Of a stretch of 64,000 nucleotides of DNA, positions 15,371 to 64,000 are shown piece by piece. Under the pieces are notes generated by a model. That model did no database searches, had not been told where the DNA came from, and saw only the letters and a list, made by a program, of their open reading frames with translations. Source of the stretch: a bacterium. GTDB taxonomy: Bacteria; Bacteroidota; Ignavibacteria; Kapaibacteriales; UBA7675. Made by a program: the position numbers and the translations under genes. Each line of letters begins with the position of its first letter. Positions within the stretch are counted from its first letter, which is position 1. The stretch is taken from NCBI GenBank assembly GCA_030430495.1, contig JAUIKM010000015.1, forward strand, positions 62,001 to 126,000. The letters are read 5' to 3'.

Positions 15371-16297
15371 ATGAAGTCAGTCAGCGAAAACAGCGATATC
15401 AGCCTGTCGTTACCTGTCATTCAACCCGAAGTCAAGCCCGCGCCGAGCGAGGAGCCGCGCCTGGGACGCCGTCCCGATTGGCTCAAGGTACGCCCGCCGG
15501 GCGGCGCGGAGTTTGCGAAGCTGCGCAAGATGATGCGCTCCAAGACGCTGCACACGGTCTGCGAGGAGGCGCGCTGCCCGAATATCGCCGAGTGCTGGGG
15601 CGCCGGCACCGCCACCTTTATGATTCTTGGCGACACCTGCACGCGTTCCTGCGGCTTCTGCGCCGTCAAAACCGGACGCCCGCCGCTGCTGGACCAGGAA
15701 GAACCCGGCCGCGTGGCCGACGCCGTGGCGGACATGAACCTGAAACACATCGTCATCACCTCGGTCAACCGCGACGAGCTGAAAGACGGCGGTTCGGACA
15801 TTTTTGCGCGCACGATTCTGGACACGCGCGCCAAGAGCCCGAACACGAGCATCGAAGTGCTTATCCCCGATTTCAAGGGCGACCTGCAGGCGCTGCAACT
15901 GATTATCGATGCGCGCCCGGAAATCCTGAACCACAACATGGAAACCGTGCCGCGCCTGTACCGCCGCGTGCGGCCGCAGGCTAAATACGACCGCTCCCTG
16001 TTGGTGCTGGACGAATGCAAAAAACAGGGCCTCAAGACCAAAACGGGTCTGATGCTCGGCCTGGGTGAAACGCGCGAAGAAGTCGTGGCGGTGATGGAAG
16101 ACCTGCGCAAGATCGACTGCGACATCCTGACGCTGGGGCAGTACCTGCAACCCACGAAAAATCACCTGCCGGTGGACCGCTACGTGCACCCGGACGAGTT
16201 TGCCGAGTACAGGAAGATCGGCATGGAAATGGGCTTCGGCCACGTTGAGTCCGGCCCCCTGGTCCGCAGCTCCTATCACGCCGAGCGCCACGTCTGA
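15371..16297 (+). CDS. lipA: Lipoyl synthase
   Basis: LipA inserts two sulfur atoms into protein-bound octanoyl groups, using radical SAM chemistry and two 4Fe-4S clusters. Both cluster motifs are present: the auxiliary one in [12 protein letters not shown] and the radical-SAM one in CTRSCGFC. Family blocks such as [19 protein letters not shown] and [10 protein letters not shown] are intact, as is the C-terminal RSSYHAE. The length of 308 residues is normal. A weak AAAGG site precedes the ATG. Its stop overlaps the next start (TGATG). A likely client of lipoylation, GcvH, is encoded at 52614-52994. Confidence 0.97.
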
Positions 16298-17061
16298 TGC
16301 GCGTCACGGTCCTCGGCTCCGGAACATCGTCGGGCGTGCCCGTAATCGGCTGCCCCTGCCCCACCTGCCTGTCGGACGACCCGCGCGACCAGCGTCTGCG
16401 GCCGTCGATCCTGCTGGAAGCGGAGGACACGGCGCTCGTATTTGACACGTCGACGGACTTCCGACAGCAGATGCTGCGCGCGGACGTGAAACACCTGGAC
16501 GCGGTGATCTTTACGCACCACCACTGCGACCACGTGGCGGGCTTCGACGACATCCGCGCTTTTAATTTTATATCGGGCCGGGCACTTCCGATTTACACGC
16601 TGCCGGAGACGCTGGCGGCGCTGCAGCGCATGTTCAGCTATGTATTTACGCCGCCGGAGCAGATCGGCGGCGGCATCCCGCAGATCATCCCGACGGAGAT
16701 CGACTCGGCGTCCTTTGCCGTCAACGGGCTGGAGATCACTCCCATCCCGATGAAACACGGCATCATGCGCGTCAACGGCTACCGCATCGGCGACTTTGCG
16801 TACTGCACGGACACGAATTACATCCCGCCGGAATCCTTTGAGCTGCTCGACGGCGTGAAGGTTCTTGTACTCGACGCTCTGCGCTACCGGCGTCACCCGA
16901 CGCATTTCACTGTCGACGAGGCGATTGAGGCGGCTTGCCGCATCGGCGCCGAGCGGACGTACTTCACGCATATCGCGCACCAGATCAAACATGCCGACTT
17001 GAGTTCACAGCTGCCGGACGGCATCGAACTGGCCTGGGACGGGCTGGTGATCGAGCTGTGA
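16297..17061 (+). CDS. Metallo-beta-lactamase-fold hydrolase, PhnP-like
   Basis: The 254-residue protein begins with VTVLGSGTSSGVP and the cysteine cluster GCPCPTC, which marks the PhnP-like branch of the MBL superfamily. The metal motif is THHHCDH (HxHxDH form) near residue 72. Further metal ligands are likely in MKHG, in TDTNYIP and in the C-terminal THIAHQIKH. These enzymes are usually phosphodiesterases on cyclic phosphates or nucleotides. It is translationally coupled to lipA by a one-base overlap. The substrate here is not known. Confidence 0.85.
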   Translation: MRVTVLGSGTSSGVPVIGCPCPTCLSDDPRDQRLRPSILLEAEDTALVFDTSTDFRQQMLRADVKHLDAVIFTHHHCDHVAGFDDIRAFNFISGRALPIYTLPETLAALQRMFSYVFTPPEQIGGGIPQIIPTEIDSASFAVNGLEITPIPMKHGIMRVNGYRIGDFAYCTDTNYIPPESFELLDGVKVLVLDALRYRRHPTHFTVDEAIEAACRIGAERTYFTHIAHQIKHADLSSQLPDGIELAWDGLVIEL

Positions 17062-17587: not shown

Positions 17588-18043
17588 ATGTCTGTCGACC
17601 CAATCCCCGGCAACGTCCAACGCGTCATCCCCTACCTCATGGTGGACAGCATCGATGCCGAACTCCCCTTCGTCCAAGCCGTCTTCGGCGCGGACATCCT
17701 CGAAAAAATCCCCGGCCCGGACAACAAAATCATGCACGCCGAAATCAAAATCGGCGATTCCATGGTCATGTTCGGCTCAAAAGACGGCGAATCCGTCCCC
17801 AGCATGCTCTACGTCTACGTCCCCGACACGGACGCCGCCTACCGCAAGGCAATCGAACTCGGCGCGACAAGCTTGATGGAACCGGCCGATCAATTCTACG
17901 GCGACCGCAACGCGGGCGTGCAGGATAAACAGGGCATCAAATGGTGGATCGCCAGCCGCGTCGAAAACGTCAGCCCGGAAGAAATGGAAAAGCGCTCGCG
18001 CGAGTGGGCCGAAAAGAATCAGGGCCCGCACCCGCTTGTTTAA
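17588..18043 (+). CDS. VOC-family (glyoxalase/bleomycin-resistance fold) protein
   Basis: The 151-residue protein starts at the ATG preceded by GGAG eight bases upstream. The fold elements of a vicinal-oxygen-chelate protein are visible: RVIPYLMVDSIDAELPFVQAVFGAD, a central HAEIKIGDSMVMFGS and a second module YVYVPDTDAAYRKAIELGA. The ending PADQFYGDRNAGVQDKQGI is typical of the PhnB/YP-type subgroup. Many members of this subgroup are uncharacterised, and the substrate cannot be inferred. The C-terminal extension is rich in charged residues. Confidence 0.8.
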   Translation: MSVDPIPGNVQRVIPYLMVDSIDAELPFVQAVFGADILEKIPGPDNKIMHAEIKIGDSMVMFGSKDGESVPSMLYVYVPDTDAAYRKAIELGATSLMEPADQFYGDRNAGVQDKQGIKWWIASRVENVSPEEMEKRSREWAEKNQGPHPLV

Positions 18044-18110
18044 GTTGTAAAAATCGCAGCCGTCGGCACGTCATGTGCAGGACGCGTCGGCGGCTTCCAA
18101 GCAAAACCCC

Positions 18111-18302
18111 GCTTCGCCCCGGCTGCGCTCGTGGCTTGCTTTTTTATTTTGTTAACCACCGAAGTCACAACGTCAAACCACCGAGTCTGTTAACATCCTC
18201 AAAACCTCAAACCACAAGCCGGCCCGCGCGTGATCACCCGGTGACAAACAAAAGAATCAACGAGCCTGAGGACAAGCGCAGCGCAGGCCTCAAAGCGATC
18301 AG
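18111..18302 (+). repeat. Two-block intergenic repeat, copy A
   Basis: Block 1 (18111-18162, starting GCTTCGCCCCG and holding GTGGCTTGCTTTT) and block 2 (18227-18302, starting CGCGTGATCACCCGG) recur in the same order and orientation at 21170-21360, on the other side of the helicase gene. In block 2 I count 68 identical bases of 76 by hand; block 1 differs at about six of 52. The middle part does not align. The 305 bases between the VOC stop and the helicase stop hold only this element. Confidence 0.75.
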
Positions 18303-18348
18303 GTCCGCGCCCCGATTAAACAACCAGCCGCTCATCAAAACTGCGCGA

Positions 18349-21162
18349 CTACTCCCAGCGGTCGCTGCGATGCACGGAATGCGCAAGTTTGCCCAACATG
18401 TTGTAGGATTTAATGCGCAGCAGAATCGCCCTGCCGCCGCTCAAATGCGTGTCAATCATATTCGACATGCCAACCTGTTTAATCCAGTGTTTCAGGAAAA
18501 TCTGCCGCCGTTCCCGCTTGCGCGCCAGTTCAGTCGGAATCGCGTGAATCTCCTCCGGCCGATTGTCCGGATTCAGCCCGCGCGTCACAAGATAACGCTG
18601 GTCGGCGATCGGATTTAACAACTCCGCGATTGCGTCCGCCAGGATCGACCTGTCGTGAATCACCCCGCCGGTCACCGTTGCGGACCAGACGCCGTCATCA
18701 TCCTGCTTAACGGCAACCGCCGTCGAGTCGGCATCGCACTCCAAAAGCCGCATCTCCGCCATCGCATTGCGAACCGCCAGGCACATGCGCAGCATGGTTC
18801 CGCCCGCCGGAACGTGTTTTAACATGCCGCCCAGGTGGTTAAACAACTTGACGCCCAGCATCGCCGCCGCGCCCAATCCAAGTCCAAGGAGAGTGAGGTG
18901 CAGCATGGCGCCGCTCGCACCGCCGATAGCCAGCTTTGCGCCCGCCGAGAGAAGCACCGAACCGAACGACACGCCGCCGATGCGAATACTGCTTTTAACA
19001 TGTTGCACGTAGAATCCACGCAGCGACGGCGGCTCCGGAGGCGCCAGCGCCCGCTCCCTGTCAACCAGGCGAACCACCGGCACAACCGCAGCATTGGCGC
19101 GTTCGTCCGGATCGCGCTGCCACGCTTCCCGTATCGACTCCAGCTTTAACAGGCGCCGCGCCGAGAGGTCGTTAAGAACCTGCAGATCAAGCTCGCTGTT
19201 TAAGCTCGGCAGGTTAAGTCTGTCCAGGCCGCTGCCGATTCTGTCGCGATCGTTGTAAGCCCCGACAAATGTATCAAAGCGCTGCTCCAGGCGAGCGACG
19301 TCGCTCATCCCTTCCGGCGCAACACAATCCACGCAGACCAGATGCCAGATGGAAGCCAGCTTTCCGGGATCGAGTTTTGAGCGTCGAATTGCGCGCCCGC
19401 GCAGTTGATTCGTCGAGACAAAAGAACCGACCGAGGTGGCCAGGATTAAAGAGTTGATTTCCGGCGCGTCCCAACCCTCTCCCAGCAGCGCGCGCGTTCC
19501 GACCACCGTGTGCACCAGCCCCGCGCGCAGCAGATCCGACAACAGGCGTACAAACCGATTGCTGCCGCCGCGCATTTTAAACTGCACAAAACCAGGCCGC
19601 GCCGCCGACGACTGCGACTGAAACATGTCGTCCTTCAGCTGCCCACTTCGGCGCAGGTATTCCAGGCAATCAAGATGCACCACAATCAGACTGCCGGTTA
19701 ACAATACTACGTCGCGTGCGTGATTATTGGCGTCCGATGCTAAACGCAGAAAGATCGGCCATGCGCCCAGTTCATCTTCCACTCCTTTGCGGATGTAATC
19801 CGTCAGAATGGCCAGCCGCAGTGCATCGCCGCGCGCGGCGCGCTCCAGCCGGTGTATCTCCAGACAGGCGTCAATTTTCGAGGAAGACAGGCCCAGTGCG
19901 CGTTCACTGCGTGGATTGCGACTTAAACACAACTGCCGCCGCACCAGCAAGTTCTTTGAACGCAGCCTGCGCGCCAGCGCCTGGCGGTGCTCCTGCGTTT
20001 CCTCTTCCGCCGACCAGCTCTGCTCGTCGAACAGATAAGACGCGAGCACGCGTTCAACGTGGCGTTTGTCAATCGGCGGAATGTCCGCGTGAACAAGACC
20101 CAGTGCCTGCGCCAGCGCCTGCGGCGGCTGCCCCTGCGCCTTCATTAAACAGAGCATGGCAAAAGCCAACTCGTGCGCCGTCAGAACCTCGGCGATGTCC
20201 ACTGGCCCCCGCATCCAGCGGTGTTTAATCAGTTCATGCGCCAGCCTGTCGTCGGCCAGGATTTCGTGAAACATGGCTGTGGCGGTTTCCGCGCGCTCCG
20301 CAAAGTCGTCCTGCTCTTCTTCGTCCGGCGCGACGGCCCAGATAAAGTCCTGATGCGGCGCCAGCGTCTCGTTGTATACCAACTCCGGAATGGCGATCTC
20401 CTCGTCGATCGGACCGCACAGCAACTCATAGCGGTGCCATTCGTGCGGCGCAACATCGTAGGGCGGCGTCCCCGTGAGCGAGATTACAACAACGTCTTCG
20501 ATTTGTTCAACAAGCGTATGCAATGCGCGCCACCAGGCCGCCCGCAGGTGGTGTGCCTCGTCCAGGATGATTGTTTTAACGCCCGCACGATTAAACACCG
20601 CGGCGGCGGCATTTAACTCGGCTTTGCGCGGCGCTTTTGCACGGCCGCCCTCGGCGTTGTCCTCGTCGCGTTCGCCTTCCGGCTCATCGCCCTCATCTAC
20701 CGCGGCTTTGCCGGCGCGGCGTTTGTTAAAAGAGTGCAGCGACTGATATGTTAAACTCGTTAAAAAAGCCGGCGCATCGATTGTTTTACTCGTCCAGTCC
20801 GGACGGGCGCTGTTTTCCGGCACAAAGTCGCTCAGGCGTTCCAGCCATTGATCGCGAATGACGCGCGTTGGTGAAAACACGACCGCAGGTTCGCCCAGAC
20901 GCCGGAACACCTCCAGCCCCAGCACCGTTTTCCCCGCGCCGGGAGCCGCGACAACATGCAGCCGGTCATCGCTCAGATGCCGGTCTATCGCATCGAGCAC
21001 GCGCTGCTGGTAAGGACGCCAGGGCCAGCGGAATTTCAGCGCATCGGTCGGTCGCCTGTCCAGCGGCGGCGCAGCTTCGCTTGCAACTCTTTCGGAATGC
21101 GAATCGCTCATCCGCGCAATTTGGGGATTTTTGCCTGCGCGGCAACTCATTTTTTTTGCCAA
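18349..21162 (-). CDS. Large SF2 DEAH-type helicase with hydrophobic C-terminal segment
   Basis: The protein has 937 residues if it starts at the TTG at 21162, or 933 from the ATG at 21150. It is an SF2 helicase or translocase: Q-like motif RPYQQRVLDAI, Walker A GAGKT (75-79), FSPTRVIRDQW, DEAHH (201-205), LTGTPP (about 230), GTRALLGEGWDAPE and QLRGRAIRR (motif VI, about 590). An acidic and charged insert lies at about 154-175. The C-terminal third carries a long hydrophobic stretch (about 725-772, LTLLGLGLGAAAMLGVKLF), so membrane association is possible. No nuclease or methylase domain is seen. Leucine is often TTA or CTT before codons starting with A, unlike several neighbours. Direct repeats lie on both sides, which suggests acquisition. 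Function is unknown; a defence or DNA-repair role is only an inference. Confidence 0.8.
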   Translation of the reverse strand: MAKKMSCRAGKNPQIARMSDSHSERVASEAAPPLDRRPTDALKFRWPWRPYQQRVLDAIDRHLSDDRLHVVAAPGAGKTVLGLEVFRRLGEPAVVFSPTRVIRDQWLERLSDFVPENSARPDWTSKTIDAPAFLTSLTYQSLHSFNKRRAGKAAVDEGDEPEGERDEDNAEGGRAKAPRKAELNAAAAVFNRAGVKTIILDEAHHLRAAWWRALHTLVEQIEDVVVISLTGTPPYDVAPHEWHRYELLCGPIDEEIAIPELVYNETLAPHQDFIWAVAPDEEEQDDFAERAETATAMFHEILADDRLAHELIKHRWMRGPVDIAEVLTAHELAFAMLCLMKAQGQPPQALAQALGLVHADIPPIDKRHVERVLASYLFDEQSWSAEEETQEHRQALARRLRSKNLLVRRQLCLSRNPRSERALGLSSSKIDACLEIHRLERAARGDALRLAILTDYIRKGVEDELGAWPIFLRLASDANNHARDVVLLTGSLIVVHLDCLEYLRRSGQLKDDMFQSQSSAARPGFVQFKMRGGSNRFVRLLSDLLRAGLVHTVVGTRALLGEGWDAPEINSLILATSVGSFVSTNQLRGRAIRRSKLDPGKLASIWHLVCVDCVAPEGMSDVARLEQRFDTFVGAYNDRDRIGSGLDRLNLPSLNSELDLQVLNDLSARRLLKLESIREAWQRDPDERANAAVVPVVRLVDRERALAPPEPPSLRGFYVQHVKSSIRIGGVSFGSVLLSAGAKLAIGGASGAMLHLTLLGLGLGAAAMLGVKLFNHLGGMLKHVPAGGTMLRMCLAVRNAMAEMRLLECDADSTAVAVKQDDDGVWSATVTGGVIHDRSILADAIAELLNPIADQRYLVTRGLNPDNRPEEIHAIPTELARKRERRQIFLKHWIKQVGMSNMIDTHLSGGRAILLRIKSYNMLGKLAHSVHRSDRWE

Positions 21163-21169
21163 CTCAGAT

Positions 21170-21360
21170 GCTTCGCCCCGACTGCGCCGTGGCTTGCTTT
21201 TCCATTCTGTTAATCACCGAGCGTCAGGTTGTCAACCAAAGAACCTGTTTAATGTCGCCGCGCGTCAAGCCACACGCCCGCCCACGCGTGATCACCCGGC
21301 GGCAAACAAAAAAGTCAAAGAGCCTGAGGGCAAGCGCAGCGCAGACCTCAAAGCGGTCAG
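21170..21360 (+). repeat. Two-block intergenic repeat, copy B
   Basis: Block 1 occupies 21170-21220 and block 2 21285-21360, in the same order and orientation as copy A at 18111-18302. Block 1 begins 8 bases from the earliest helicase start (21162), so it forms the immediate leader of that gene. Confidence 0.75.
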
Positions 21361-21376
21361 AATGCAATCCACGAAA

Positions 21377-21396
21377 TTAGTTGCCTAGGCAACTAA
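21377..21396. repeat. 20-bp perfect palindrome
   Basis: TTAGTTGCCTAGGCAACTAA is perfectly symmetric and the symmetry continues beyond one mismatch on each side. A second palindrome, GTAGGCCTAC, follows at 21403-21412. Both lie just after repeat copy B in gene-free DNA. Such sites suit a dimeric DNA-binding protein, or a hairpin. Confidence 0.6.
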
Positions 21397-21733
21397 ATTT
21401 CAGTAGGCCTACAACCACTTCCGCACAAGCCGCCCGGTCCAAAAACGAGATCGTTGGCGTCGCCTCGCTCCGTACAAGCCGGATTGCGCCCGGACTGCGA
21501 CTGCACGAGTTGGAAGTGCGTCAAACCACGGAAGCCCAAACCGGCATGTGGCGGCGCGCGAACACAAGAGTCCAGAAGCGTTAAAACACAAATGCCAGTA
21601 TTGAAGATGAGCCGGGGGGCGGGGACCTAAACAGTTTCCGCTCAGCAAAAGCAGGATCCGAACGGCAGAATTCGGCTCCCAACAGACCAGCCGGGCTCCA
21701 AACAGTCGAGGCGGATTGTGGCCGGCGCAAACG

Positions 21734-21797
21734 GAATCCAATCGGAGAACGCGGACAGAATCCAATCGGAGAACGCAAACAGAATCCAATCGGAGAA
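21734..21797 (+). repeat. 24-bp tandem repeat, 2.7 copies
   Basis: The unit GAATCCAATCGGAGAACGCG plus four more bases is repeated at 21734, 21758 and 21782 (the last copy is partial). The units are nearly identical, so the array is recent. There are no spacers, so it is not a CRISPR. No gene overlaps it convincingly. Confidence 0.85.
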
Positions 21798-22297
21798 ACA
21801 AGACTGAAGACTCCGAGACTGGCGTGGCCGGTCTCCGGGACCCAAAAGGGTCGCCCGCCTCCCGCCGCCGCCTGTCCATTTTTCAAATTTTTCACACCGC
21901 AGGGCAGCAGCACCCCGTCCCGCCAACGTGGATTTTTTTTCGGGACATCACATCCCATCGACTGCGGAATATCGCATCCCCTCTCGGAGAACTTCCCGCG
22001 CGGCACGGCCGAAACACCCGGATGATTCGACGCAGGCAACATGCCCACAATTCCCGCACCCGGCAAGTGGAAAAGTTTAAGCGTAGTCAATTCCGGAGTA
22101 AACGCGCCTGAAACGGTGATAAACGGGCGCACAACACAATAGGCAGGTTAAAAGGCGGATGAAATCGCGGGCAACATCTCTAAACCATCAGGCGCGTTGA
22201 CCGACGTCCAACGTCAACCAACGCGCCTGGAATATAGACCCTCGAATTTTCCCGCTGATCTTCAGCCCGCCGAAGTTAACACTTTTTTACAAAAATG

Positions 22298-22633
22298 CTA
22301 TCGGCTCATGTCCAGATCGTCCGGCGCCTCGATTTCCATCTGCAGCATCGCCGTCGCAACGACCTTGCCCTGTGCGTCGAGCTTGAGCGAGACCGTGCCG
22401 CCGCCGCCGAGCGTGTTGTGCAGCACAAAATTGAGCGCCCACAGATTCGGCAATTCATATCGGTCCACGTCGCCCTCGCAGACGCCGGTGAAATGTTCCT
22501 TGACGCGCGCCGCCGTCAGCTGATCGCGCAGGAGCGGATACCACTCTTCTTTATATGCTATGACGCCGCAGTTGGCTGCATCGCCCTTGTCGCCGCTGCG
22601 CGCGTGGGCAATTTTTGACAAAGGGATTTTCAT
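22298..22633 (-). CDS. AtuA C-terminal-like small protein
   Basis: The 111-residue protein begins [18 protein letters not shown] and continues with AANCGVIAY, which is the signature of the C-terminal domain of AtuA-type proteins (acyclic terpene utilisation) and of stand-alone partners of DUF1446 proteins. A glycine run [16 protein letters not shown] precedes the end. In known systems this domain accompanies a large AtuA/DUF1446 subunit, but no such gene is adjacent, so the main subunit is elsewhere or missing. The gene upstream on the same strand encodes an unrelated exported protein 74 bases away. Confidence 0.7.
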
Positions 22634-63798: not shown

Positions 63799-63834
63799 GC
63801 GGGCTTCAACACTTTTCAATTTCCCGTTCAGAGC

Positions 63835-63882
63835 GCTTCGCCTCCGCTGATTACAGCGGGCGGCTTGCTTTTTCATTTTGTT
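63835..63882 (+). repeat. Partial copy C of the intergenic repeat (block 1 only)
   Basis: GCTTCGCC and CGGCTTGCTTTTTCATTTTG match block 1 of copies A and B, with an inserted small hairpin (CCGCTGATTACAGCGG). It lies 37 bases after rpe and may act as a terminator, given its T-rich end. Block 2 is not found before the window ends. Confidence 0.55.
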
Positions 63883-64000
63883 TGTCAACGTAGCCGGTGT
63901 TAACAGACTACGAGACCGGCGCAAGATATCCGGCCGAAGATTGCACCGCAACGGCGAATGAGCAAAAAACACCTGAGAGTTAACACGGCGTTTCGCGCTG

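Follow-up and report, generated by a model that had tools for sequence, protein, structure and literature searches.

The two sequence blocks that flank a helicase gene in the 64,000-nucleotide stretch of bacterial DNA analyzed here (the window) are the two hairpin end-modules, B1 and B2, of a REPIN-like intergenic repeat. Close neighbors of this family are sister copies almost only in direct orientation, and the most alike direct pairs, on contigs C13 and C45, bracket foreign-looking DNA. We regard it as about evenly poised whether such repeats are places where acquired DNA was inserted together with duplication of the repeat, the helicase gene being an old case, by an enzyme and a mechanism that we infer.

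According to the preliminary description, two blocks recur on either side of the helicase gene with order and orientation unchanged. This arrangement was recovered as two whole two-block elements, copy A spanning 18105-18304 and copy B spanning 21164-21362, with a start-to-start distance of 3,058 bp. In copy A, the B1 module (18105-18167, minus strand; covariance model R2, 68.7 bits, E 2e-14) corresponds to block 1 as first delimited at 18111-18162, and its hairpin end adjoins a glyoxalase gene. The B2 module (18233-18304, plus strand; covariance model R1, 82.7 bits, E 4e-18) corresponds to block 2, first delimited at 18227-18302, and its hairpin end lies 45 nt past the helicase stop codon. 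The less conserved middle spans 18163-18226, the spacer proper between the modules being 18168-18232. In copy B, the B1 module (21164-21225, minus strand; R2, 58.3 bits, E 5e-12) is located directly upstream of the helicase start, and is followed by the B2 module (21291-21362, plus strand; R1, 80 bits, E 2e-17). A third, partial copy had been noticed after rpe; it is a solo B1 module (63829-63896, minus strand; R2, 69.1 bits, E 2e-14) beginning about 30 nt past the rpe stop codon.

Copies A and B are 79% identical over 192 bp (E 3e-39 in a search of the window's own genome), a similarity far beyond chance, and their flanks, at 47-49% identity, are unrelated. Block 1 matches in 46 of 52 aligned columns and block 2 in 68 of 76, exactly as first counted for the latter. 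The middle parts had been described as differing, with only the blocks conserved. They are indeed less conserved (41/66 identical, 62%), but this identity exceeds that of 300 shuffles (mean 48%, maximum 60%), and the middles are therefore homologous too. Next to copy B, a second palindromic intergenic motif, close to TTAGTTGCCTAGGCAACTAA, was seen at 21374-21400, and similar motifs occur near modules in L003, L005, L015 and L017. In addition, a 24-nt unit (including AATCCAATCGGAGAAC) is repeated three times in tandem at 21726-21808, within the 0.9 kb that separate copy B from the AtuA gene.

The bracketed ORF (18349-21162, minus strand, 937 aa) encodes a ResIII/XPB-like helicase (Pfam ResIII, E 3e-16). 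It starts with a TTG at 21162, and an internal ATG may be the true start. Its N-terminal part alone matches RAD25/XPB in the PDB, and its long C-terminal part matches no known family. A known defense system was considered and rejected, the only match being a weak one to PbeA. Homologues are sporadic, with one in 60 order-level relatives and six more among 294 genomes drawn at class level; homologues at 29-35% identity also occur in four plasmid records and in two labelled as phage. The composition of the gene is native, with codon usage at the 39th-41st percentile and a GC content of 0.60. The words TTTAAAC and GTTTAAC seemed over-frequent for a GC-rich genome, in genic and intergenic DNA (in 18349-21162 and elsewhere), which is an uncounted impression.

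When the genome that contains the window (5.6 Mb in 80 contigs, 95.6% complete) was searched, 45 matches were obtained, nearly every one of them covering either block 1 or block 2 alone. The aligned copies resolved into two module types of about 60-75 nt each. The B1 consensus is GACnAACAAAA-(A-rich)-GCAAGCC-hairpin-GGCGAAGCGCTC, and the B2 consensus is GACnAACAAAA-nnnTCAnnn-GAGCCTGAG-hairpin-CTCAAAGCGATCAG. The tail GACnAACAAAA and the stem bases are conserved, and the hairpin interior is variable yet pairing. Since these interiors pair better than their shuffled versions do (p 2e-18 and 5e-15), what is conserved in this part of the module is the structure and not the sequence. An RNA family was considered and rejected, no credible Rfam match having been found.

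Covariance-model searches of the genome, with overlaps removed, detected at least 149 B1 and at least 147 B2 modules. Profile searches detected 318 modules in approximately 1.2 Mb of genome stretches, mostly picked because they bear modules; the census consists of these stretches and the genome searches. Of 58 adjacent module pairs, 54 are arranged tail-to-tail, and their spacer lengths peak at 60-75 nt; complete copies consist of two modules in this arrangement across a spacer of about 64 nt. The modules are nearly all intergenic, the few apparent gene overlaps being mostly at ORF edges, and they are enriched in convergent gaps and depleted in divergent ones. Thus the suggestion of a dispersed intergenic family hosting accessory genes was partly right: the family is dispersed and intergenic, but most modules are solitary, near the 3' ends of ordinary genes, and bracket nothing. 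Accessory genes between copies were found at C45, C13 and a few other places. Solo and doublet modules differ in score for B2 (43.6 against 39.2 bits, p 0.01) and not for B1, so that the REPIN prediction of singlets more decayed than doublets held for B2 only. At C33:69245 and 70021 (L049), an exact 234-bp duplication, 776 bp apart, includes part of a B2 module, perhaps through a recent local duplication.

The preliminary description had proposed a comparison of the blocks with related genomes. The family was not found by DNA search in 60 relatives, nor in the viral contigs or plasmids searched, although these sets may omit records from this genome itself or from very close ones. In two members of the same family but of other genera, G001 and G002, the B1 covariance model gave no match (G001) or chance-level matches only (G002, E 0.5-0.6), and the stretches of relatives that were examined contained no modules. 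An exact-pattern scan of 84,980 GTDB genomes returned five scattered single matches, which is about the estimated chance expectation. On these data, the family is confined to a single species or genus. Domains of the secretion-tail kind hint at a Bacteroidota-type lineage for its host.

To characterize neighboring copies, all same-type module pairs were compared by similarity, distance and orientation. Among pairs 0.7-10 kb apart, 24 of 56 direct pairs and 1 of 44 inverted pairs reached at least 60 bits (p 1e-6); for pairs located on other contigs the share was 2.4%. Raising the threshold to 80 bits left 13/56 direct and 0/44 inverted pairs, against 36/25,270 on other contigs; both thresholds were set after the data were seen. 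Pairs inside one locus are not independent, and counting by loci gave nine direct and no inverted cases at 80 bits within about 13 kb. These counts of direct against inverted pairs are the basis for calling close neighbors sister copies almost only when they are direct. An orientation set by the replication strand (lagging-strand insertion, as in IS200/IS605) does not explain this bias, because neighbors overall are about equally inverted and direct.

The direct pairs differ in their degree of similarity. On C13, copies at 0.4 and 12.9 kb are 98.6% identical. On C45, three copies at 23.3, 29.3 and 32.6 kb are in direct orientation, with identities of 97% and 91%. On C17, copies at 110.6 and 114.7 kb are 97% identical over 66 nt. 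Further direct pairs are found on C70, C29, C71 and C80, and the window pair stands at 79%. In the C13 (98.6%) and C45 (97%) pairs, identity starts and stops at the element boundaries, with unrelated flanks.

Between the most alike copies, the DNA is compositionally foreign. The C13 insert carries caspase and WD40-caspase genes, with a GC content of 0.47 and codon usage at the 0-11th percentile. This locus (L103:428-13037) is an AT-rich island of 12 kb that encodes two proteins with caspase domains, one of which also has WD40 repeats, between elements that are 98.6% identical. The C45 inserts encode a PKD/Ig-domain protein (0.1 percentile) and a PQQ/secretion-tail protein (8th percentile), and the genes flanking them are at the 64th-96th percentile; gene calls and codon percentiles are home-made. 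The two C45 inserts showed no similarity to each other in nucleotide and protein comparisons, and two is the largest number of inserts found in a row. Over 20 independent pairs, the more similar the brackets, the lower the GC content of the insert (rho -0.59, p 0.0065). The idea of a mobile or cassette-like unit is likewise partly right: a lone block is no mark of a cassette, whereas the most similar direct neighbors do bracket foreign segments.

Two loci, the window and C45, were compared with G001 and G002 for empty sites. The gene orders recA-rpoD-lipA-MBL and AtuA-panD-glmU_N-MCE-gpmA-TldD are the same in both genomes as in the window. The left anchor is an MBL-fold hydrolase gene (16297-17061, plus strand) with the same neighborhood in both relatives, and the right anchor is an AtuA ferredoxin-like domain gene (22298-22633, minus strand; Pfam PF23544), 83-86% identical in both. 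The MBL-AtuA interval is 0.7 kb with a small ORF in G001 and 8 kb with other genes in G002. Between these anchors, the glyoxalase gene, the helicase gene and the repeats are all absent from both genomes; the glyoxalase-superfamily gene (17588-18043, plus strand; Pfam PF00903), which lies outside the brackets, has no match in the stretches compared. A distant homologue of the helicase exists in G001, on a contig other than that of the syntenic locus. The prediction of relatives without the helicase but with a single block therefore came true for the helicase at this locus and failed for the block. The genes flanking the C45 segment are separated by only 8 bp in G001 and by 1.7 kb in G002, compared with about 10 kb here. 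Thus, the window and C45 segments, being absent at the same loci in the two relatives, are extra relative to them, although the window site varies even without repeats. At the recA-lipA/AtuA-panD junction, each genome examined holds different extra genes (L244:6655-14630 in G002; L243 in G001), a site of variable genes even where the repeats are missing.

Duplication of the repeat at insertion best fits these observations, because sister copies are direct only, identity is sharply limited to the element, the inserts are varied and foreign, and insert GC follows bracket similarity. Acquired DNA would enter at an element, which would be duplicated meanwhile, leaving element, insert and element in direct order. 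A possible physical route would involve staggered nicks at two opposed hairpins, capture of the incoming DNA and fill-in. The helicase would then be an old insertion, its brackets having diverged to 79% and its composition having turned native. Integration of a circle through recombination with any one resident copy is a poorer fit: given how widely the copies elsewhere differ, such an event should leave hybrid brackets and not near-identical ones.

Several observations go against an insertion with duplication. Within the window, the helicase is unremarkable in composition and its brackets match at no more than 79%, so that age is indistinguishable from coincidence at this locus; the same site varies among relatives that lack the repeat; and the pairs at C80 and C13:112-118 kb lie behind tandem paralogues. 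No circular intermediate was identified, nor any transposase or integrase in searches for the Y1_Tnp and integron integrase families. Since the helicase is native in composition and the stretch missing from relatives includes the glyoxalase gene outside the brackets, the window locus is at best an old case.

A rather doubtful, but serious, alternative is that ordinary dispersed REP/REPIN-like repeats lie beside the helicase by accident, with neighbors being similar because tandem gene duplications copied the module behind each gene and because the modules are under selection. The dispersal of the family, most copies of which bracket nothing, is in keeping with this, and tandem duplication likewise yields direct orientation. 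Indeed, tandem gene duplication does account for two of the pairs, at C80 and at C13:112-118 kb; in both, a module lies downstream of each of the paralogues, which are about 52% identical, and C70 brackets two paralogues that are 28% identical. However, the copies at C13, C17, C29, C45, C71 and the window pair have no paralogous genes around them. Moreover, the 97-99% identity at C13 and C45 stops at the element, and the trend between insert GC and similarity is not expected from accidental neighbors.

It is quite improbable that gene conversion or repeated local recombination homogenizes neighboring copies, with foreign DNA and repeats merely sharing tolerant intergenic sites. Such a process could be seen in the modules at C80 and C13:112-118 kb, which are more alike than the genes they follow, and in the window pair, whose modules are more alike than their spacers. 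It should convert inverted neighbors too, yet these resemble each other no more than copies far apart do (1/44 at 60 bits).

Finally, we consider it very unlikely that the modules are intrinsic transcription terminators of conserved design, one for each convergent or neighboring gene: a T-rich stretch follows each hairpin on one strand, solo modules in convergent gaps are nearer the gene on the hairpin side (54 vs 18) and the rpe copy sits just past its stop codon, but solo modules in tandem gaps have no orientation preference (34 vs 41), the B1 module of copy B is at the helicase 5' end, some copies come after a separate terminator-like hairpin (L004, L030), and terminators would neither need the long conserved tail nor turn neighbors into sister copies. 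Some copies may still act as terminators.

The usual view of short palindromic repeats is that they are passive or selfish. A family that marked or mediated the uptake of foreign genes, being duplicated as they enter, would represent an acquisition route distinct from integrons and ordinary transposons, and each acquisition could then be dated by how similar its two brackets are. More speculatively, and in our opinion with a modest chance of being correct, the family could form a dispersed cassette system devoid of an integron integrase. Structured intergenic repeats would then be insertion sites for arbitrary foreign genes and would be duplicated whole (about 50-190 bp) at each insertion by a putative enzyme, leaving acquired genes between near-identical direct repeats across the chromosome. 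Should insertion with duplication prove wrong, what stands is a clearly described REPIN-like family that lacks the usual tag and transposase.

Among known systems, integron attC sites and cassettes are similar in having imperfect palindromes with a variable interior, direct copies around single accessory genes and one element just past the 3' end of the gene (C45, C13, C70 and the window). In contrast to an integron, the copies here are dispersed over the genome rather than gathered in one array, and the brackets are near-identical sisters. Integron-like direct structured repeats around single genes are limited to C45, C13, the window locus and a few others. TIGR02249 matches to the integrase IntI were all below cut-off, as in all control genomes, and an integron was rejected on this ground. 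The family shares with MITEs a short, non-coding, multi-copy nature, inverted ends and sharp boundaries, but its ends are hairpins rather than plain terminal inverted repeats, and searches for the Y1_Tnp and integron integrase families found no parent transposon. By eye, no target-site duplication was visible beside the C13 and C45 copies.

During CRISPR repeat duplication, DNA is cut in a staggered way and filled in, so that the insert ends up between two copies of one sequence. Casposon integration duplicates sequence on both sides of the insert in the same manner (PMC4046053). The likeness to these two processes is conceptual only, since here a unit of about 50-190 bp would be duplicated around inserts of several kilobases. 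In Neisseria, Correia repeat enclosed elements and minimal mobile elements are also comparable: the former are genome-specific inverted-repeat intergenic elements, set apart from the present family by their promoter, IHF and RNase III functions, and with the latter variable genes are exchanged at fixed sites (PMC2649163). Both traits, genome-specific inverted-repeat elements between genes and variable genes at fixed sites, have their counterpart here.

The closest known kind is REP/REPIN. These are abundant short intergenic hairpin repeats, genome-specific and with a preference for convergent and unidirectional gaps and for gene 3' ends; REPINs are inverted pairs around a less conserved spacer, singlets are also common, and tandem clusters of near-identical REPINs including their flanks are reported (PMC3116915, PMC3733652). 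The present family is alike in its high-copy intergenic hairpins, inverted doublets, less conserved spacer, genome specificity and common singlets. Its modules differ in being longer (about 60-75 nt), in being of two types and in carrying a conserved unpaired tail 5' of the hairpin. In a column-by-column consensus (180 B1 and 128 B2 modules), no GTAG or CGTC tag is conserved at the hairpin. The 95.6% complete genome gave no PF01797 (Y1_Tnp) match, so that no RAYT gene was found and a RAYT-driven REPIN was rejected. Because this tag and this gene are missing, the repeat is not filed as a REPIN. Thus, it behaves in a REPIN-like manner, and adds to that behavior direct sister copies kilobases apart around unrelated genes, a trait not described in PMC3116915 and PMC3733652.
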